This document shows positions 2,230-13,128 of a DNA stretch of 35,890 bases, piece by piece. The notes under the pieces are model-generated. The model saw nothing but the letters and a program-made list of their open reading frames with translations, ran no database searches and was not told where the DNA came from. The DNA lies in assembly GCA_017391905.1 (NCBI GenBank), contig JAFOWX010000060.1, forward strand, positions 1-35,890. Direction: 5' to 3'. The DNA comes from Paludibacteraceae bacterium (GTDB lineage: Bacteria; Bacteroidota; Bacteroidia; Bacteroidales; Paludibacteraceae). Positions within the stretch are counted from its first letter, which is position 1, and each line of letters opens with the position of its first letter. The position numbers were made by a program, and so were the translations under genes.

Positions 2230-5200
2230 ATGAAAAATTTTACAAACAATTTTAAACAAATTACCTCGCGCCTAAGCGCAAGGTGGCTTATCATGGCCTT
2301 AATGCTACTTGTGGGAACAAGTAGTCTGTGGGGGAAAACTATATATTTTAAAGCCAATGGCAGTAATAACTGGGCAGCTGATAATGCTGTTATACAAATA
2401 AGCGTTGGTTCTAACACCTCGTGGAAAAAAATGACAAGCCTTGGTAATGGTATGTATTCGTACGAAGCAAATAACGGAGCTACAGTATATTTTGCCCGTG
2501 GTGCATCAGAAGGAAGTACGTGGAATGTAACAGGAAAGCTGACTGTCCCAAGTGATAAAAATTTATTTACTCCTAATGGATGGTCTAACTGTACAGGAGA
2601 TTGGTCTACCTACACTCCGCCTACTACCTACACAGGTACAATTAAATTTCAAAGGCCTAGTGCATGGAAAAATGTTCCTCACATCCATATGTTTTATGAC
2701 GGAAGTAATACTTTGGTTGACAATAAAACAATGACATTAGAGGGTGTAGATGCTAGCGGAAAAACATGGTATAAATATGATTATAGTATAACAACAACTT
2801 TCACTACAGCTACTATTATGTTTAATAATGGCGGTTGGGGTAATGGTCAAACAAATGAACAATTTAAAGGTAATCTTGGAACTGATTATTGTTTAACTGG
2901 AGGTAGCTCTGCAGATGTAACATCAGTTGATTGCCCTGTCTTTTGCACCACCGTTAATGCTCCTGTCGTAACTTCGAATGGACCTATCTGCGCTGGTAGC
3001 ACTGCAACTCTTACATTGACTAATAGACAAGAGGGTGTTACTTATAAACTAAATAGCACAACAGGTACTACTATATTTACCTCTGGTAACAACACTTATA
3101 CAACACCAGCGTTAAATGCGAATACAACCTATAAAATTTATGCATCACACGCAAATGCTTGTACTAACAATGTAGAAGGTTCTGTTACCGTTACTGTTAG
3201 TCCAAAACCTGCAATCACTTTAAAAGCAGCACCTACTATTTGTCAAGGTACTACTATTACATTTGCAAACTATGTAGACAATAATAACACTATTGGTACT
3301 GTAACATGGCATACTAAACAAGACTTTTCGGATGCAGCTATTGCAACAGCAAAACCAAACCAAACAACAACTTACTATGCAAAGGCAACAAGTGGCAATT
3401 GTACACCTGCAACAGCTTCATTAAAGGTTACTGTTGACCCAAAACCTGCAATTACCTTAAATGCGGCACCTACTATCTGTCCTGGGGATGAAGTTACATT
3501 TGCAAACTATGTAAAAAATACAAGCATAGGTACTGTAACATGGCATACTAAACAAGACTTTTCGGATGCAGCCATAACATCTGCAACACCAAATACAACC
3601 ACAACTTACTATGCAAAAGCAACTAATGGTGTATGCTCTACACCTGCTACAGCTTCATTAAAAGTTACTGTTAAACCAACCCCTACCACACCTGCTATTA
3701 CATTAATTCCAGCAGATGGTAAGATTGTGAAAGGTGAAAATGCAACATTAACTGTAACTGCACAAGACGATGTAACATTTACACTATATAAAGATGGTGC
3801 TTCTACTGGCAAAACAGAAACTCCATTTACTATTTCAGAAGAAGGTACATACCATGTAGTTGGTATAAACTCTTGTAAAGTTTCTTCTCCTGAATCAGAC
3901 AAGAAAACAATTACCATTTGTACCCCAAATGCTACATTGATAAGTGCAACATATAACCAAGTAACAGATAAGATAGACCTGAGCGGTAATTTAACTGAAA
4001 CTTGCGGTAAGAGCTTATACTATGGTTTCTTATGGAAAGTTGAGGGCGATGATTGGAATACAAATAATGCAATTTCTGGAACAGGTGGCAATAATAATTA
4101 CACATCTACCAACAATACTGCATTTAATCAATCATGGGCTGATGCTGTAATGGGTACAACATACGTATTTACAGCATACGCTTTAGATGCAAGTTCTGGA
4201 AATCCAAGCACTTATGTTTGGTATTATGACACAGAAGGTATTGAGGTAAGCAAATGTATCACTATTACAGAGCCAGACATAACAGCAGCCCCTATCTGCA
4301 CTGGCAGCACAGCTGTACTTACATTAAACAACAGACAAGAGGGTGTTACTTATACTTTAAACGACACACCAATCTTTACAGATAAGGACACCTATACAAC
4401 ACCACCATTAGCTGATAATGCAGACTATACAATCATAGCTACATCAGGTAGTTCTTGTACTCCTGAGCAAGAAGTACCTGCAACAGTAACCGTTCAAGTA
4501 GAGCAAATACCTGCCGCCCCAGCCATTACTACCAAAGCTACCATTTGCCCTAATACAGATACTCAGTTAAGCAGCTTTAATAATGGTGTGGCAAACGTAA
4601 TGTGGTATTCAGACCCTGAATGTAACAGTCCTGTTACTACCGCCAATATTAGTTCTGAAAAAAGCTATTATGCACGTATAAAAAGCGGTATTTGTTTTTC
4701 GGAAGTGGCACAATTAGACTTGTCTGTATATATAGCCCCAGAGCAACCATCTATTACCCCTTCTGGCACTATTCCCGTAGGTCAAGGCAAAACAGCTACC
4801 ATTACGGTAACCAATTACAATGCAAATGTAACCTACACCTGTTATGATGAAGAAGAAAATGTAGTAGGCACCTGGAACGAAGGCACGCTTTCTATTGTAG
4901 CAGGCGATGCTTTGGGCAAAACCGATTACCGCATAGTAGCTAGTAGCAAACAGTGCCCCAACTTAGCAGAAGAAGTTTCGTTTAGCATTAACGTAACCGA
5001 ATCGGGTGCTAAAATAGTTCAATTAGGAAACTTATCGTTGTGTACCAATATTGTTACAGACTTTGTGCCCATGTACGTTACAAACGATGGTATAGCCGAC
5101 TTTGCTGACCAAGGTGCTACCAAAGTAAAAAGTTATACCTGGCAATGGTATACAAACGGAGCATGGGAAGATTGCACCGTAAATTATGGTGCTAATGCAG

Positions 5201-7167
5201 TGGGTGTTACCAATGGCGGAGCCGATTGTAACAACTGGCGTGCTAACAAGGTAGGCCGCTATCGCTGCCAAATAACCTACGCTACAGATAATGATGTGGT
5301 AGTAGGCACTCAAGAATCTAATATATTAGTAGTTACAGAATCGGCTGGTAATGCTCCTGCGGTGAATGCCTTTGGCGATTTACCCATTATTTCTGTAAAC
5401 ACAGGTAGCAATGCATTCCCATCAGACCCTGCAAGTGGCTACCCATCAGCCAAAGCCGATGAGATGAAGGCAAAAATATCGGTGGATGTTAAAATCTTTG
5501 ATAAACAAGGTAATGTACACTACGACCGCAAAGCACGTATGAACTACCGCGGTTCTTCGTCCTTGAACTTCCAAAAGAAATCGTACGCCTTTGTAACCGG
5601 TAAAGAAAAAACCAAAAACGAAAAAGGCGATGTAGATACCGGCAAAGAAAACTTGTTTGGACTATCAAACGGTGCAAAAGACAAAGACTGGGTACTTTAC
5701 GCAGCTAACCCAGACCCCTCTATGATGCGTAACCGCCTTGCCTTTGACCTTTACAAAGAAATGACCGGCAAATGGGGCGTAAGCAGTATGTATGTAGAGT
5801 TGGTTGTTAACGGCGAATACAAAGGTGTTTACGTGTTAATGGATAAGATTACCAACAACGAAAAACGCGTAAACATTACTTCAAGCAACGGCTTTATTGT
5901 AAAATTTGATAAAACCGATGTGGTGGACCGTGTAGAGAACAAGGAGGGCGACCAAAAAACCTTTGCTACCACCAGAACGGGTACCGGTGTGGATGGTAGA
6001 CACCCTAATGGCATAGACTCTTACGGTACTAAAATTGATCAACGTTTTGAAATAGAATACCCTGAAAAAGAAGATATTGAGGACGCTGGTGGTAACTGGA
6101 CCGAAACCTACACCATTATCAAAGACCGTTTTGAGGAATTTGAGGCAGCGTTGGCCGAAAAAGATTATCCTACCGTACGTAAGCTAATTGATTACGATAG
6201 CTGGGCAGACTGGTTTATTCTTTCCGAATACATTAAAAACCAAGACACCTACCGTGCCAGCAACATCTTTGTATTTAATGGCGATAAAATTGAGGCATGG
6301 CCTTTGTGGGACCAAGAGTTAAGCTTTAACAACCAAACACGTACCGCACATGGAAGTGCAAGTACCACTGGTTTAATGGCTACTACCCAAACCATATACG
6401 AAGATGCATTTAAAGCCGTATTCTGGCTAACGGGAGGCGATGCCGACGATAAAGGCGGCTTACTTGGCGACCCCTGTTTTGTGGCCTTGGTAAAAAGCAA
6501 ATGGGAAGGATATAAAGCCAACCAACTAAGTGCAGCTAAGATTAAAGACAAAGTAGATGCTTACCATGCAGAATTAGGCAATGCGCAAGCTCGTGAGGAA
6601 GTACGCTGGCCCTATACAGGAGAAAAACGTGGTTTAACTTCTAAAGGAGCTACCACAGGATACTACGGCAAAAACGAAGGTACAGCAGTAGGCTATACAG
6701 ACTCTAAAGATGCCATTACTTCATGGGCTACAGGCCGTATAGGCGGTCTTACTACCGCATTAAATGCCTATAGCACAGAAGATTTAATTTTTGGTATTTC
6801 GCCCGAAACTACACCTGCTACTCCATGGCAACCAGTAATTCTTACCGTATCGGTACCAGAAGGCTTTGAATACGACATTGCTTACCCAGAGCTTACCGCA
6901 GCGGGTGCTATTGTAACCAAAACCAAGGATATGTACCAAGTTAAAATTCCACGTCCTACTGGCGATGGCTGGACTATAGGTGGCAACGGAACGGACAGTA
7001 ACGGACAACCCACTGCACAAACCAAAACATTTACGGTAACGGCTACTATTACCAAAAGTACCGATAATGCATGTGGTTCCGTAAACAAAGACAAGGTAAC
7101 CTCTACCATTACATTACAAGACGTAACCGAAGCTTGCAATCCAGAAATTGTAAAACAACAACCATAA
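2230..7167 (+). CDS. Giant secreted CotH-kinase protein with carbohydrate-binding-like and Ig-like repeats
   Basis: The 1645-residue protein opens with a signal peptide (hydrophobic WLIMALMLLVGTSSLWG). Two starch-binding-like beta modules follow (about 36-118 and 135-225; the second has IMFNNGGWGNG), then a string of Ig-like modules to about 1000 that repeat the pattern PAITLxAAPTIC. A CotH kinase domain lies at about 1050-1410. It shows YRGSSSLNFQKKSYAF (near 1104-1119), LFGLSNGAKDKDWVLYAA (near 1141), YKGVYVLMDKI, and WPLWDQELSFNN with the conserved metal-site Asp at about 1361. CotH domains are atypical protein kinases known from Bacillus spore coats. A final beta-sandwich ends in EIVKQQP without a recognisable T9SS tail. 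It is probably exported and cotranscribed with the next gene 35 bases downstream. Substrate is unknown. Confidence 0.85.
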   Translation: MKNFTNNFKQITSRLSARWLIMALMLLVGTSSLWGKTIYFKANGSNNWAADNAVIQISVGSNTSWKKMTSLGNGMYSYEANNGATVYFARGASEGSTWNVTGKLTVPSDKNLFTPNGWSNCTGDWSTYTPPTTYTGTIKFQRPSAWKNVPHIHMFYDGSNTLVDNKTMTLEGVDASGKTWYKYDYSITTTFTTATIMFNNGGWGNGQTNEQFKGNLGTDYCLTGGSSADVTSVDCPVFCTTVNAPVVTSNGPICAGSTATLTLTNRQEGVTYKLNSTTGTTIFTSGNNTYTTPALNANTTYKIYASHANACTNNVEGSVTVTVSPKPAITLKAAPTICQGTTITFANYVDNNNTIGTVTWHTKQDFSDAAIATAKPNQTTTYYAKATSGNCTPATASLKVTVDPKPAITLNAAPTICPGDEVTFANYVKNTSIGTVTWHTKQDFSDAAITSATPNTTTTYYAKATNGVCSTPATASLKVTVKPTPTTPAITLIPADGKIVKGENATLTVTAQDDVTFTLYKDGASTGKTETPFTISEEGTYHVVGINSCKVSSPESDKKTITICTPNATLISATYNQVTDKIDLSGNLTETCGKSLYYGFLWKVEGDDWNTNNAISGTGGNNNYTSTNNTAFNQSWADAVMGTTYVFTAYALDASSGNPSTYVWYYDTEGIEVSKCITITEPDITAAPICTGSTAVLTLNNRQEGVTYTLNDTPIFTDKDTYTTPPLADNADYTIIATSGSSCTPEQEVPATVTVQVEQIPAAPAITTKATICPNTDTQLSSFNNGVANVMWYSDPECNSPVTTANISSEKSYYARIKSGICFSEVAQLDLSVYIAPEQPSITPSGTIPVGQGKTATITVTNYNANVTYTCYDEEENVVGTWNEGTLSIVAGDALGKTDYRIVASSKQCPNLAEEVSFSINVTESGAKIVQLGNLSLCTNIVTDFVPMYVTNDGIADFADQGATKVKSYTWQWYTNGAWEDCTVNYGANAVGVTNGGADCNNWRANKVGRYRCQITYATDNDVVVGTQESNILVVTESAGNAPAVNAFGDLPIISVNTGSNAFPSDPASGYPSAKADEMKAKISVDVKIFDKQGNVHYDRKARMNYRGSSSLNFQKKSYAFVTGKEKTKNEKGDVDTGKENLFGLSNGAKDKDWVLYAANPDPSMMRNRLAFDLYKEMTGKWGVSSMYVELVVNGEYKGVYVLMDKITNNEKRVNITSSNGFIVKFDKTDVVDRVENKEGDQKTFATTRTGTGVDGRHPNGIDSYGTKIDQRFEIEYPEKEDIEDAGGNWTETYTIIKDRFEEFEAALAEKDYPTVRKLIDYDSWADWFILSEYIKNQDTYRASNIFVFNGDKIEAWPLWDQELSFNNQTRTAHGSASTTGLMATTQTIYEDAFKAVFWLTGGDADDKGGLLGDPCFVALVKSKWEGYKANQLSAAKIKDKVDAYHAELGNAQAREEVRWPYTGEKRGLTSKGATTGYYGKNEGTAVGYTDSKDAITSWATGRIGGLTTALNAYSTEDLIFGISPETTPATPWQPVILTVSVPEGFEYDIAYPELTAAGAIVTKTKDMYQVKIPRPTGDGWTIGGNGTDSNGQPTAQTKTFTVTATITKSTDNACGSVNKDKVTSTITLQDVTEACNPEIVKQQP
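3202..3672 (+). repeat. Tandem 237-bp duplication in the CotH-protein gene
   Basis: Two consecutive units (about 3202-3438 and 3439-3672) each encode an Ig-like module of about 79 residues starting PKPAITL and containing GTVTWHTKQDFSDAAI. Long blocks are identical at the DNA level, for example around 3300-3325 and 3534-3559, so the duplication is recent or kept uniform by recombination. Confidence 0.8.
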
Positions 7168-7202: not shown

Positions 7203-10200
7203 ATGAAAAAATTTTATAACAATACATTAACGCGCGGGGCTTTTAGTAAGGCCCTACGCCTTGTTGCCTTACTCTGCGTTCTTATGGGCGTAAGCAGTAG
7301 TGCGTGGGCAGATAATATTTATGTTACCGGGGATGCTTTTGATGGTTGGGGAAAATGGACTCAAATGACATCTATTGGTGACAATAAATATACCTGTGTA
7401 ATTAAAAATTCTTCAGGGAAATTTAAGTTATCATCTTCTGAAGGTTACGGGAATACATGGAATAATCTGTCATGTGGAGATGGAAGTGTAACATGTAATG
7501 GTGCAAATGACCACCAAATAAATAAAGCGGGTGTTTTATATTTTGAATGGAAGGACAATGGGTATGTTTGGGTAGAAGAAAATTCATCTTCCGGCTGCGA
7601 CCCTTCAGCCGATATTTACCTAACAGGTTCATTCAACAGCTGGAATACCGCTCAAGCTAATTATAAACTGACCGCAAATCCTGGTAATGATGCGGAGGTA
7701 ATGATTAAAGGCGTTACACTAGCTGCTAATGCTGAGTTCAAAGTTTTTCAGGGATGTTTTTATGGTTATGAAAATTTGGTTCAAACGGACGATAACAAAG
7801 GTTTTGTTGCAAATACAGATGGTAACATCAAAGTAACCAAAGCTGGTACATACGATGTTTATTTTGATAAAAACGACCATCACATTTATATTGGTTTAAA
7901 TGTACCTTGTACCGAAGATGATAGCAACCTAGGCGAGTGCGACCGTATTGAAGTTTATTGTAGATACACAGAGAATGACAACTGCAATATGAAAATCTAC
8001 GCATATAGTAGTTGTACTTCAAAAATCCTAAATTCTAATGGTACTGCTGGAAATTCTGGGGAAAAAGTAAATGTCAATGGTACTAATTATGCAAAATGGG
8101 TATTCCCTACAACTGGTAGCAATATTTGTGTTAAGTTTATTTCTGGTACAGATGCTAGTTATGCTACTACTGTAAGATGTAATCTGTCTAGTGGATATAA
8201 ATACTATTTCACATTGCCTTCTGGTTGGGGAAATCAATCATTCGACCCAACATCAGAAAAAATTTCATGTGGTGGCGGTGACGACCCAGACGACCCATCT
8301 GATGTACCCAGCTGCGATGCTATTGAAATTTGGTGTAAGGGTGAAGGTGGTTACATAGGCATGCACTGCTACGCTTGGCACCCCGATAACAACTCCGACA
8401 ATCCACTTGACGGATGGCCTGGCTGTACTACCTCAAAAACAGGTATGTACAACGGTGTAAAATACGCTGTGTGGACGGTTACAGGCAAGGATAGATTAAA
8501 CATTATCTTTAACAACGGTGGCGATGGTTGCAAAACAAACGACATTGTAGGCTTAGAAAAAGGCAACCGATACATTTATACCTTAGCAAGCAGTTGGTGC
8601 GGTACTACCCCTACGTGTAAAGTAATTAACTGCGAAGGCGGTGGCGAAGTAGATGTAGTAAATGGTACGGTATATTTAGATGTATCGTCGTTTAAAGATT
8701 GGTTAAAAGAAGGGGCTATTTTTAAAGCGGTACTTACAAAGAAAGCGGGTGGTACCGAAACTAAAAATATGATTCAGTGTGCCAGCGAAACCAATGTATT
8801 TTATGTAGACGAGGTATTGAACCTTACCAATTACAGCAAAATACAGGTATTGCGTTGCAACCCAGCAGATGGTGGACAATGGAACTATTCCTCAACGTTA
8901 AACCTAAGCCCCACTACCACCTGTGTAAAAGTAACAGGCTGGGATAATACGGGTTCGATTACCAAATACACGGGTTCTTGCGGTGTATCTACCAATACTC
9001 CTGTTTATTTAACCAACCCTGCAGTGGTGGGTGCCGATGGCAGATCGGTTACCATGTATGCTTACCTTTCTGAAACCTACTGTACTTCTATTACCGAGTA
9101 TGGTTTTGTATATTGCCCCGGCACACTTTCTGCAGGTTGTACGCCTACCGCATCGTCGCCTAAATTAAAGGTAGGTAACGGTAACGCTACACAAATTTTC
9201 CGTGGCGAAGCTTATCAACTAAATACCAGTGCATTAAGCATGGGTAAGACCTATGGATACAAAGCCTACGTAAAAATAGGCAACATGACCTATTTGAGTG
9301 CCGAAACGGGATACTTTAAATTATCGGATTGTAACACACGTCCTGAGGCCGAAAGTGGCACCATTACCTATACGGTTAATGCCGCATTGGGCGAGGATTA
9401 CGAAGACGACTGTACGCTTACATACGGTAACTTGCAAACGGCTATAGACCGCTTAAAACAATCGTACAGCAACCCAGAACCTATATATCAATACGTAACT
9501 AAAAACGGGGATAGCTACAACTTGCGTCAGCCTATAGTAATGAAAGTACACTATTACGATGATACCCCAGAGGACGATACCATCGATTACATTTACCGTG
9601 GTACTACCAACATTGGCAAATATGCAGGTAACGCTAAACCTACGCATAGTAACTTATTGGAAAACATTAACCGTAGCAGTGCTAATGCAGCCAATACCCT
9701 AACCATTAAAGCGGGCGATAACAAGGCTAAACCTTGGGTGCACCACATTGTACTACGTAATAGTAAAAACATTGTGTTGGATAGTTTGGCTATTTTCTCT
9801 GACCCTGCCGACTCTGACCCCCAAAAAGCTGGCACACAAACCATTGGCGATAATGCCATTGAAATGGATAAAAACATTGCTTCTGGCGACGCAGGCTGGA
9901 ATACGCTAAATACCAATGGCTATGTAGATGATGCCAATATTGTGGTACAAAACTGTATGATTGGGTCTGATGGTTTTACGGGTGCACACATTTCAAGTTA
10001 CGATGGTGTAACGTTTAAAAATTGTGACTTTGAATCTGTGTTTAACGACCCTTCGGGCAACGCTATTGCATGGGGTGCCTCGTTTAAATTGTTGTATTGC
10101 AAAAACATCAAGTTTATACAAAACAACTTCCGTGGCGACCACGCTACGCTTATGTGGATTCAGGAGGTACAAAACATGTTGGTAATGAACAACGTGTTCT

Positions 10201-12563
10201 GGAATACCAACAAGTTCTTAGCAGGCAAAGACCAACGTAACCCAGCTGCCATGCGTTTGGTTACTCAATGGAATCCCGTAAAAAATGTAGGTTTCTATTA
10301 CAATACCTACTTCTTTGCGGATAATGGTATAACCTCAAGTTCTACCTACGACTTTATGTCGTTTGCCGAAACAGCAGACATCAACGTGGCTACTGTAGAG
10401 TTTAAATACAACAACTGCTATAGCTACGATAAAGACTGTCCTGGTAAGAGCGGCAACCCATTTAATGGAAAAAGTATAGGCGGTAACTATGCCAGCAACT
10501 TCTGCCCCAATAACTTCTGGAGCCAATACGATGAGCTAAATAAAAAATCGTCGTCTGTGTTTGCTTTTGGCGATTGTGACGATAAGAAATTTATCAACGT
10601 AGCTAAACAAGTATGTTCTACTACTGCCAGTGGTCCAGCTTCGCTTCAAATTAAAGGTCAAGCTATGGACTTGGGTATTAAACCAGATATTACTAAAACG
10701 GGCATTACCCTTACCGCTGATGAATGGTATTCGGACAGATACCTAAAAGACCAACGCCCCAAAACTAACCAAGAATGGACGTATGGTGCTTATCAAAGTA
10801 AAGACAATGTTGAAACACAATATATTTACTGGGTAGGTATATCAGAAGACTGGGACGACCGCAACAACTGGGAATACGAGGTAGAAGACGATAAAACACG
10901 TGCATTGGTGCGTCAGCGTTTATCGTGCGTAAATACCTTGTCGCCAAACCTAATTGCTGTAATTGAAGAAAAAGGTACAGTAGAAGTTGCTGGTGGTAGA
11001 AAATGGCCTTGCATACCAGATTCGTTTACTGGAACACGTAGTAATCAAAAGGATGCAGAAGGAAATATTGTAGATGAACATGTTTCGGCTGGTTTGGGAA
11101 CAAAAACTACCACAGAACTATTTGCTAAAACCATTATTGTTGAGGCTGGTGCGGCTATTAAAGGGGTTGAGCACTTAAAAAATGGTAGCCTACACTACCA
11201 AGATGCAACGGTACAGATGAATGCACCTCGTAGCAAATGGGTGTTAGTGGGCGGTGTGGTTAAACCATTTAGCGAAAATGGTAATCCCAACAGTGCTTTG
11301 CGTGACATTGTATCGGGCGATTACTTCAAAGATTACATGCCTCAAGTATATATGCACCAAGCCGAAATTGACGGTACAAATGCTACATGGGCAAGAACAT
11401 TCCCTGATTTGGATGTACCTGTACTGCCCCAAACGGTATTTGCTATCAATATTCCAGACGAATATGGCGATTACAAATTGCCGGCTGCATACTACAACAA
11501 GTATTTTGGAGGTGATGTAGATGGCGAAGCACCTGTTTTGTACGAATTTAATGGCCGTTTTGCGGACGATGATGCTATGCGTACCTATAGTGATTTAACA
11601 GCCGGTGTGCCTACCCTTATTAACAATACCTATCCATGTAACTTGGATGCAAGAAAGGTAGAAGAAATAAGCGGTGGTACCGTATTGTTCTACAACTACG
11701 AGGCTGCCACCTTTATGAGTACGGCATCTACGGCAGGTAAAGTATTGCTAAGACCTCAACATGGTTTCATCTTTACACCCGCTGCAGGTAAAGACGAGTT
11801 GGAAATTACCAAAGACATGATTGCCGATGGTAATACTCGCTCGCGTAGTGCTGCGGCTATCATACCTACCATTTCTATTAACTTGTTTAATGCCAATACA
11901 CAAAAAGGCTTTAGTAACATTGTGCTACATTACAATGCCCAAGTAGAAATAACCAATGGCACAGCAACCGACGCCGAGAAAGTATTTGCTCCAAATGCTG
12001 ATTCGCCAGAGTTGTACATTATGGCAAACGACAAGAAATACACTCGCTTTACGGCTGGTTCTACCATGGTAACCATTCCATTGGGTATTCACTTGCAAAA
12101 AGACATGAATGTAAAATTTGAACCCGTTTACTTTGAAGGACTTAACGAAGTGATTTTGTTTGATGCATTTACTGGTCAAACAATAGACTTGTTACGCCAT
12201 GAGTTTACCACAGAGTCGCTTATTGCTGGCGATATAGAAGGTAGATACTTCTTAAACATCGAACTGAAAGAAGAAAGTGACTACGTACCTGACGAAGAAA
12301 TTGAAACGGATATTGAGGAGTCGATAGCTCCCGAATGCGCTATCAATATTTACACAAACCAAGCTACTGGAAACGAAATTAGCATTGTAACGGCTAACGT
12401 TGAATTGCAAACCATTTACGTTAGTGATATGACCGGCAAAACCGTAGAATATAAAGCCGTAGGCAACAATGCTTTGCTACGTTTGTCTGTTGCGCCCGGC
12501 GCATACATCGTTAAAGTAGTTGGCGATAAATTAACAAGAACAGAAAAGGTGATTTTAAAATAA
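7203..12563 (+). CDS. Giant T9SS-exported surface protein: carbohydrate-binding-like modules and beta-helix
   Basis: The 1786-residue protein has a signal peptide ending SSSAWA (about 36). Several beta-sandwich modules follow: DNIYVTGDAFDGW at the start, a glycogen-binding-like module with IYLTGSFNSWNTAQ (about 134-233), and two Cys-bearing modules, CDRIEVYC (about 243) and CDAIEIWC (about 369). The latter has PLDGWPGC and NIIFNNGGDGCKT as in CBM26-like starch-binding domains. From about 840 to 1160 come right-handed beta-helix-like rungs (IVLDSLAIF, VVQNCMIGSDGF, VTFKNCDFESV, IKFIQNNFRG, MLVMNNVFWN). Residues about 1714-1786 match a type A T9SS sorting domain, with IYVSDMTGK, PGAYIVKVVGDK and final KVILK. 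It should cross the outer membrane through T9SS and be anchored on the surface. A polysaccharide-binding role is inferred; no glycosidase active site is seen. Confidence 0.85.
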   Translation: MKKFYNNTLTRGAFSKALRLVALLCVLMGVSSSAWADNIYVTGDAFDGWGKWTQMTSIGDNKYTCVIKNSSGKFKLSSSEGYGNTWNNLSCGDGSVTCNGANDHQINKAGVLYFEWKDNGYVWVEENSSSGCDPSADIYLTGSFNSWNTAQANYKLTANPGNDAEVMIKGVTLAANAEFKVFQGCFYGYENLVQTDDNKGFVANTDGNIKVTKAGTYDVYFDKNDHHIYIGLNVPCTEDDSNLGECDRIEVYCRYTENDNCNMKIYAYSSCTSKILNSNGTAGNSGEKVNVNGTNYAKWVFPTTGSNICVKFISGTDASYATTVRCNLSSGYKYYFTLPSGWGNQSFDPTSEKISCGGGDDPDDPSDVPSCDAIEIWCKGEGGYIGMHCYAWHPDNNSDNPLDGWPGCTTSKTGMYNGVKYAVWTVTGKDRLNIIFNNGGDGCKTNDIVGLEKGNRYIYTLASSWCGTTPTCKVINCEGGGEVDVVNGTVYLDVSSFKDWLKEGAIFKAVLTKKAGGTETKNMIQCASETNVFYVDEVLNLTNYSKIQVLRCNPADGGQWNYSSTLNLSPTTTCVKVTGWDNTGSITKYTGSCGVSTNTPVYLTNPAVVGADGRSVTMYAYLSETYCTSITEYGFVYCPGTLSAGCTPTASSPKLKVGNGNATQIFRGEAYQLNTSALSMGKTYGYKAYVKIGNMTYLSAETGYFKLSDCNTRPEAESGTITYTVNAALGEDYEDDCTLTYGNLQTAIDRLKQSYSNPEPIYQYVTKNGDSYNLRQPIVMKVHYYDDTPEDDTIDYIYRGTTNIGKYAGNAKPTHSNLLENINRSSANAANTLTIKAGDNKAKPWVHHIVLRNSKNIVLDSLAIFSDPADSDPQKAGTQTIGDNAIEMDKNIASGDAGWNTLNTNGYVDDANIVVQNCMIGSDGFTGAHISSYDGVTFKNCDFESVFNDPSGNAIAWGASFKLLYCKNIKFIQNNFRGDHATLMWIQEVQNMLVMNNVFWNTNKFLAGKDQRNPAAMRLVTQWNPVKNVGFYYNTYFFADNGITSSSTYDFMSFAETADINVATVEFKYNNCYSYDKDCPGKSGNPFNGKSIGGNYASNFCPNNFWSQYDELNKKSSSVFAFGDCDDKKFINVAKQVCSTTASGPASLQIKGQAMDLGIKPDITKTGITLTADEWYSDRYLKDQRPKTNQEWTYGAYQSKDNVETQYIYWVGISEDWDDRNNWEYEVEDDKTRALVRQRLSCVNTLSPNLIAVIEEKGTVEVAGGRKWPCIPDSFTGTRSNQKDAEGNIVDEHVSAGLGTKTTTELFAKTIIVEAGAAIKGVEHLKNGSLHYQDATVQMNAPRSKWVLVGGVVKPFSENGNPNSALRDIVSGDYFKDYMPQVYMHQAEIDGTNATWARTFPDLDVPVLPQTVFAINIPDEYGDYKLPAAYYNKYFGGDVDGEAPVLYEFNGRFADDDAMRTYSDLTAGVPTLINNTYPCNLDARKVEEISGGTVLFYNYEAATFMSTASTAGKVLLRPQHGFIFTPAAGKDELEITKDMIADGNTRSRSAAAIIPTISINLFNANTQKGFSNIVLHYNAQVEITNGTATDAEKVFAPNADSPELYIMANDKKYTRFTAGSTMVTIPLGIHLQKDMNVKFEPVYFEGLNEVILFDAFTGQTIDLLRHEFTTESLIAGDIEGRYFLNIELKEESDYVPDEEIETDIEESIAPECAINIYTNQATGNEISIVTANVELQTIYVSDMTGKTVEYKAVGNNALLRLSVAPGAYIVKVVGDKLTRTEKVILK

Positions 12564-12659: not shown

Positions 12660-13094
12660 ATGAAAAAGCAAATTTTATTGATAGTAATGACCTTGTGTGC
12701 CATGAGTGCCATGGCGGTTAGTTTGCCACGTGTATCGTATAATGCTTTTGTAACGGAGTCTAATGCAGATAACTCGTATTCGCTATCGGTGGGTACCACT
12801 TTTGTAAACCAATCTACCGTAGGTGCCTATACTGGAGGATGTTCGCCCGATTCATGGCAAAGCGATATGAATAGCTGTAAAACGTGTTGTACGGGTGAGC
12901 TTATGCAGTGTGATATGGCTTGCGCTGGCGATAAAGCATGCGAGCAACGCTGTATGGAACAAAACTTGGCGTGTCACGAGGTTTGTGAACATCCAGAGTT
13001 AGGACAACCCCTTGACGCTCCCACCGCCTTCTTGTTGGCAATGGTTGCTGCGTACGGCGCACTGATGTTGTACAGAAGAAAACAATGTATTTAA
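12660..13094 (+). CDS. Small exported Cys-rich protein with CX3C pairs and C-terminal membrane anchor
   Basis: The 144-residue protein has a signal peptide (MKKQILLIVMTLCAMSAMA). Residues 20-60 are Ser/Thr/Asn-rich. Ten cysteines lie within residues 61-109: C61, C73, C76, C77, then three CX3C pairs (C84/C88, C94/C98, C105/C109) in a helical, charged context. This spacing resembles disulphide-linked helical hairpins. The C-terminus GQPLDAPT, a hydrophobic stretch of about 15-18 residues, then YRRKQCI resembles the Bacteroidota tails with a P-I/L-D motif, a membrane segment and a basic end that are thought to be sorting signals; here the match is by eye. It lies 96 bases after the giant T9SS protein, separated by the octamer array, and may share its transcript. 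No function can be assigned. Confidence 0.75.
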   Translation: MKKQILLIVMTLCAMSAMAVSLPRVSYNAFVTESNADNSYSLSVGTTFVNQSTVGAYTGGCSPDSWQSDMNSCKTCCTGELMQCDMACAGDKACEQRCMEQNLACHEVCEHPELGQPLDAPTAFLLAMVAAYGALMLYRRKQCI

Positions 13095-13100
13095 TACAGA

Positions 13101-13128
13101 AAACGTTCCGCCCATGGGCGGAACGTTT
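13101..13128. terminator. Bidirectional terminator between convergent genes
   Basis: A 28-base perfect palindrome (13-bp arms AAACGTTCCGCCC / GGGCGGAACGTTT around AT) lies between the plus-strand Cys-rich gene and minus-strand cdaA. Each strand ends the stem in TTT or TTTT, so it can stop transcription in both directions. Confidence 0.8.

Follow-up and report, generated by a model that had tools for sequence, protein, structure and literature searches.

A cysteine-rich exported protein with an exosortase-type tail accompanies a family of giant T9SS cargos in Paludibacteraceae

The small exported protein encoded at positions 12660-13094 (+ strand) of the window, by which we mean the whole 35,890-nucleotide stretch of DNA analysed here, from a gut bacterium of the Paludibacteraceae, is best read as belonging to a divergent offshoot of XrtX/PID-CTERM, in which it would be processed by an exosortase and act as the partner of a T9SS giant. 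We assign a probability of about 0.6 to its being both a dedicated partner for the giant of the gene directly before it and a substrate for an exosortase, distantly XrtX-like, whose gene is located elsewhere in the genome. This reading was built from sequence, and the cleavage by the exosortase and the contact with the giant are both presumed in it.

The ORF is real, as first described, and encodes 144 aa with a signal peptide (judged by eye to end near AMA), a conserved mature N-terminus, a cysteine-ladder ectodomain and an exosortase-type tail. The likely mature N-terminus carries the motif AVSLPRVSY (12714..12740, + strand), which has the form AV[TS]LPSxSY in the family and in which A19, V20, L22, P23 and Y27 are found in 90-100% of 29 members. 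There are 12 cysteines. Ten belong to the ectodomain (positions 61, 73, 76, 77, 84, 88, 94, 98, 105 and 109), and the other two are C13, within the signal peptide, and C143, within the basic end. The tail, PLDAPTAFLLAMVAAYGALMLYRRKQCI (13008..13091, + strand), resembles a C-terminal sorting signal and consists of PLDAP, a hydrophobic stretch and RRK. The initial annotation had noticed an exported protein with ten cysteines, three CX3C pairs (C84/C88, C94/C98 and C105/C109) and a tail made of PLDAPT, a hydrophobic stretch and RRK, and all of these features are indeed present in the ORF. On the 3' side of the stop codon, a perfect inverted repeat, AACGTTCCGCC-CATG-GGCGGAACGTT (13102..13127, + strand), can be read from the sequence and is a possible transcript end; the terminator scan did not include it among the listed terminators. 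Two other identities were rejected for the small protein. It is not itself a T9SS cargo by the TIGR04183 profile, which had no match in it at E<=1 and does match the upstream giant, and PHROGs gave no match that would make it a phage gene.

A homologue search retrieved matches in 13 of 61 genomes, and a scan of the genome contigs with the single protein as query found no relative. We count 38 members of the family in the genus, from 14 of its 16 genomes, which leaves aside L170, L171, L172, L074, L167, L168 and L169 because they belong to other genera or are weak. The own genome (1.61 Mb in 149 contigs) encodes two further paralogues, and a profile of 29 members matched 18 of 150 genomes of the taxonomic family, some of them weakly. 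The genomes are mostly draft MAGs, and those relatives that carry a name are MAGs of Paludibacteraceae obtained from horse faeces. Genome G006 has two weak candidates, one of which is without the tail; in G008 no member was found, although an exosortase is present. The residues conserved in at least 90% of the 29 aligned members are A19, L22, P23, Y27, G45, C61, C73, C76, C77, C105, C109 and P117. Given the two paralogues in the own genome, the 38 members in the genus and these conserved residues, including P23, the cysteines and P117, the family is more than a chance resemblance. The homologue search looked at cysteine spacing, tail and neighbouring genes, and within the genus it did not reveal the loss of cysteines, tail or similar neighbours that would have spoken against the initial annotation.

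Some loci deserve mention for their own sake. A weak member in another genome, G061 (7863-8180 of locus L167), has the same N-terminal motif, a PLG tail and no ectodomain cysteine, and lies directly behind a T9SS giant. On contig C84 of the own genome, a 28-residue open frame (L069, 6585-6644) matches nothing but the last part of the sorting tail; it lies 0.5 kb behind an intact member and seems to be what is left of a copy since lost. In four genomes (L003, L015, L029 and L030), one subgroup of the family adjoins a gene recognised by eye as an AsnC/Lrp-like regulator.

The cysteine core that is widely kept is restricted to CxxCC...CX3C, where the CxxCC (C73/C76/C77) faces C105/C109; the exact CxxCC is missing in five of the 38 genus members. 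C105/C109 is the only CX3C pair found family-wide, and C84/C88 and C94/C98 are confined to a subset, so that the three pairs initially emphasised do not describe the family as a whole. The number of ectodomain cysteines, counted from the LP motif to the tail motif, is even (6, 8 or 10) in all 29 aligned members, and the extra cysteines that some members have in signal peptides and tails lie outside this count. In the window's protein, the positions of four pairs each sum to 182 (73+109, 77+105, 84+98 and 88+94), a pattern expected if the pairs bridged two antiparallel helices like the rungs of a ladder, with residue 91 at the centre. The corresponding disulphides would be C73-C109, C77-C105, C84-C98 and C88-C94, and C61-C76 would make a fifth pair. 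We examined this register, to within one residue, in the 19 members left from 46 profile matches once 13 had been set aside for want of the exact CxxCC and 14 for having no inner cysteines. It is kept in 12 of the 19, against a mean of 1.6 and a maximum of 8 in 20,000 trials of random placement, a figure that overstates the independence of the observations because the members are related. The seven members in which it is absent include the own paralogue on contig C84.

Structure prediction is consistent with this arrangement. AlphaFold2, run on nine sequences (the query and eight homologues), placed helices at residues 70-88 and 92-110 with a turn at 89-91; the helices have pLDDT values of 75-86 (means per ten residues), and the whole model is of medium confidence (mean 60.8). 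Folding from the single sequence was poor (mean pLDDT 55.8). Together, the parity, the register and the model support a predicted helical hairpin over residues 70-110 (12867..12989, + strand), with its cysteine pairing presumed, and so uphold the disulphide-bonded hairpin proposed at the outset. The exported protein is thus probably disulphide-bonded. The even and in-register cysteines argue for structural disulphides rather than for the redox partner that was also suggested; no redox family matched the protein, yet a CxxC does sit within the conserved CxxCC. Searching the PDB and viral libraries with Foldseek gave no match at E<=0.001 for the query model (mean pLDDT 60.8). Sequence searches of the PDB returned nothing at E<=1 with the family profile; with the single protein, serotransferrin was weakly matched twice (E about 0.09).

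Directly upstream of the small gene lies giant B (7203..12563, + strand), a T9SS cargo of 1786 aa with a type A C-terminal sorting domain matched by TIGR04183 (12348..12560, + strand). It is preceded by giant A (2230..7167, + strand; 1645 aa), which has Ig_7 repeats and a CotH domain, gave no T9SS type A match, and is the first gene of a likely three-gene unit. An upstream gene is available for 36 of the 38 genus members, and in 35 of these it encodes a same-strand giant directly adjacent to the small gene. Every one of these 35 is a homologue of giant B; their median length is 1529 aa (range 401-2563, some being cut by contig ends). TIGR04183 matches 37 of the 38 upstream proteins scanned (35 from the genus and three others), the miss being from G006. 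The exceptions to adjacency are L162 (G010), where the T9SS giant is downstream, and L074 (G017), where a T9SS giant is on the contig but not adjacent. The coupling to T9SS giants proposed by the initial annotation is thereby supported, and of the two giants it is the second that is the constant neighbour. Among the counterparts of giant A, inspection revealed an acidic stretch and a lone cysteine near the C-terminus in 21 of 26 same-strand second-upstream genes. The own genome encodes 20 T9SS signals at E<=0.01 and the genus genomes 12-46 each, which indicates that what accompanies the small protein is one particular family of cargo and not T9SS cargo generally. The agreement between best matches of small proteins and giants is modest (142 of 319, for a permuted mean of 116, with 2 of 500 permutations as high). 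It was 137 of 316 with the ectodomain alone and at chance level with the first 50 residues.

The other half of the main reading concerns the tail, whose three parts (motif, hydrophobic stretch and basic end) are conserved in the family and are retained where the ectodomains differ. The PID-CTERM profile (NF046080, cut-off 26 bits) gave no match to the window's protein at E<=1, and the best score in the genus was 16.8 bits, so the tail falls below the cut-off. The exosortase-like gene that the initial annotation had suggested looking for does exist: the own genome has a single exosortase-family gene (G000:C65:25362-25949, 199 aa), located on another contig, apart from the cassette. Its product passes TIGR04178 (54.7 bits, cut-off 23) and PF09721 (34.9 bits, cut-off 25.7). 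XrtX (NF046081) is its best subfamily at 54.5 bits, far under the required 170, and it passes none of the named-subfamily cut-offs among those scanned. The XrtX scores are graded, from 192 and 187 for two neighbours of PID-CTERM genes in the class through 136 in G046, 107 in G016 and 65 in G017 down to the own enzyme. Exosortases have a catalytic Cys-Arg-His triad, and Cys110, Arg151 and His170 are invariant in the 11 exosortases aligned, eight of which are from the genus. In nine of 11 regions the gene has the same two neighbours (tsaD and coaX, judged by eye). A profile built from the aligned exosortases detected the gene in all 16 genus genomes and in 102 of the 150 family genomes. It is present in 24 of the 26 genomes with tail proteins, as picked by inspection (including G006 with its doubtful tail and leaving out a weak match in G025), versus 78 of the 124 others. 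G158 and G109 are the two genomes where tail proteins are present and the exosortase was not found.

A profile of the tail alone, run over the 150 family genomes, identified such tails on nine small proteins from other genera, which the profile of the cysteine family had not matched. They were chosen by inspection from 15 non-genus rows besides G017; L215, L217, L219, L222 and L223 were rejected as long proteins or for want of an ORF, and a second row from G022 was left out. These companions have different, often low-complexity ectodomains, seven of the nine being without cysteine after residue 20. For each of the nine, the gene directly upstream is on the same strand and ends in a TIGR04183 match (E<=0.05; over the cut-off in five), although they are not nine independent cases because L210 and L211 resemble each other. 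At the level of the class, PID-CTERM is over its cut-off in 105 of 295 genomes, and we sampled 30 loci from the positive genomes, one per genome. In 14 of the 30, the PID-CTERM gene directly follows a T9SS cargo. The same-strand genes upstream of PID-CTERM number 23, of which TIGR04183 matches 14 and PF18962 also 14; we assume these to be the same 14 that were spotted by eye. An exosortase adjoins the PID-CTERM gene in 15 of the 30 loci; five have both an exosortase and a T9SS cargo, 24 one or the other, and six neither. We infer from the adjacency of both the genes and the accessions that NF046081 (XrtX) and NF046080 (PID-CTERM) are partners. Inspection also revealed a C-[WF]-PPPC motif just before the PID motif in 16 of the 30 PID-CTERM proteins (L226-L253), so that cysteine pairs close to the tail are not peculiar to the family of the window.

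These data bear on whether an exosortase acts on the small protein at all. Its C-terminal helix could simply hold a plain tail-anchored periplasmic protein in the inner membrane, where it would chaperone or dock the emerging giant with no exosortase involved. The sub-threshold PID-CTERM score of the tail would suit such a protein, as would the many genomes that encode an exosortase and no detected tail protein (102 versus 26 of the 150). We nevertheless think it unlikely, since the tail is kept although the ectodomains differ, exosortases occur throughout the genus and in nearly all genomes with tail proteins, and true PID-CTERM genes adjoin them in half of the sampled loci.

The cargos themselves provide a further link between the genus and the class. 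The domain of giant B that precedes the T9SS signal (11598..12275, + strand) had no match in Pfam, but it matches a profile of nine PID-CTERM-linked class cargos. In HHalign, these nine (of the 14), taken without their T9SS signal, aligned with the window-type giants of more than 600 residues over 217 columns (probability 99.1, E 1.4e-18). Four other class cargos used as a control reached 21.9% against the window giants and 95.7% against the nine; the latter value indicates that they are not unrelated to the nine, which makes the control weak. The window-type domain was also found in three genomes from outside the genus, each time in a cargo encoded next to a tail gene (L212, L218 and L220), and in a cargo beside a PID-CTERM gene of G046 (L174). 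It was not found in two other tail-linked cargos (L169 and L216), nor in L209, the sole T9SS cargo examined that is not known as paired.

Such a recurrence has to be weighed against the idea that the small protein has only its operon in common with the giant and is an effector, redox protein or adhesin secreted in free form, for which one could invoke the modest best-match agreement with the giant and the CxxC within the conserved CxxCC. We hold this to be improbable, because the same cargo family is adjacent in 35 of 36 genus members, a related cargo domain is found beside tail proteins elsewhere, and no redox family was matched. That the small protein, being variable, membrane-anchored and encoded directly behind a large secreted effector, confers immunity to a toxic giant fits the gene order and the variable ectodomain loosely and is highly improbable, given that the giants of all 35 pairs share a homologous C-terminal part, that the giants which were scanned matched no toxin domain, and that the companions of other genera carry other, often low-complexity ectodomains.

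If the small protein is an exosortase-processed partner of the giant, its path can be sketched. It would be exported by Sec through its N-terminal signal peptide, and its C-terminal hydrophobic stretch would then hold it in the inner membrane with the basic end inside. Oxidation in the periplasm would lock the helical hairpin by disulphide rungs, as parity, register and the medium-confidence model suggest. By analogy with the exosortase family, the enzyme would cut near PLD and pass the new C-terminus to an acceptor. The small protein would finally assemble at the surface together with the giant, which would cross the outer membrane by the T9SS; this last step is suggested by the gene linkage and by the presence of the cargo domain alongside such tail proteins elsewhere in the class. 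The small protein would probably anchor or cap the giant, although the roles of anchor, cap and assembly factor fit its sequence equally well.

The tail-plus-giant pairs across Bacteroidia suggest that two protein-sorting systems work together. More tentatively, this T9SS cargo family of Bacteroidia and its exosortase-processed companions might form one surface structure, on whose two halves PorU and the XrtX-like exosortase would act, perhaps attaching both halves to a common type of surface glycolipid; the ectodomain of the companion would be swapped by lineage among the cysteine-ladder, low-complexity and CWPPPC types. This would, if true, give the exosortases of Bacteroidota a defined role in T9SS surface display. 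The pairing provides, at once, candidate exosortase substrates and candidate partners for Bacteroidota, and it predicts that loss of the exosortase alters the display of particular T9SS cargo. A 2024 study of Flavobacterium johnsoniae reports that xrtF and T9SS genes are both needed for surface colonisation, and there the exosortase substrates are deferred to future work (PMC10936215). Another article has speculated that T9SS sugar-linkage genes and exosortase systems are connected (PMC7468200). Our literature search, whose scope left out most subscription papers and all preprints, found no paper in which XrtX or PID-CTERM is connected with T9SS cargo.

The system most similar to that of the window is XrtX/PID-CTERM, with which it shares small exported proteins bearing P-[IL]-D, a hydrophobic stretch and a basic end, and whose enzyme is the best subfamily match of the own exosortase. 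It differs in that its tail and exosortase are both under the family cut-offs, in that the own-genome exosortase gene is not beside that of its substrate, and in that the ectodomain is a cysteine ladder of about 85-105 residues instead of the short Gly/Pro-rich ectodomains of PID-CTERM loci. The enzyme belongs with the exosortase/archaeosortase superfamily, being over the cut-offs of both TIGR04178 and PF09721 and having the presumed catalytic residues, while it stays below every cut-off listed for the named subfamilies. Small Tim and CHCH proteins have CX3C-Xn-CX3C across two antiparallel helices. The same arrangement is predicted here, but the family of the window has extra rungs, an export signal and a tail. 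Finally, T9SS type B cargo binds PorP-like partners, as SprB does SprF, according to a published abstract (PMC9143113), and the small protein would likewise be a dedicated surface-anchorage partner for a T9SS cargo. Unlike in SprB/SprF, the cargo of the window is of type A, and its partner is a small protein with an exosortase tail and no beta-barrel.
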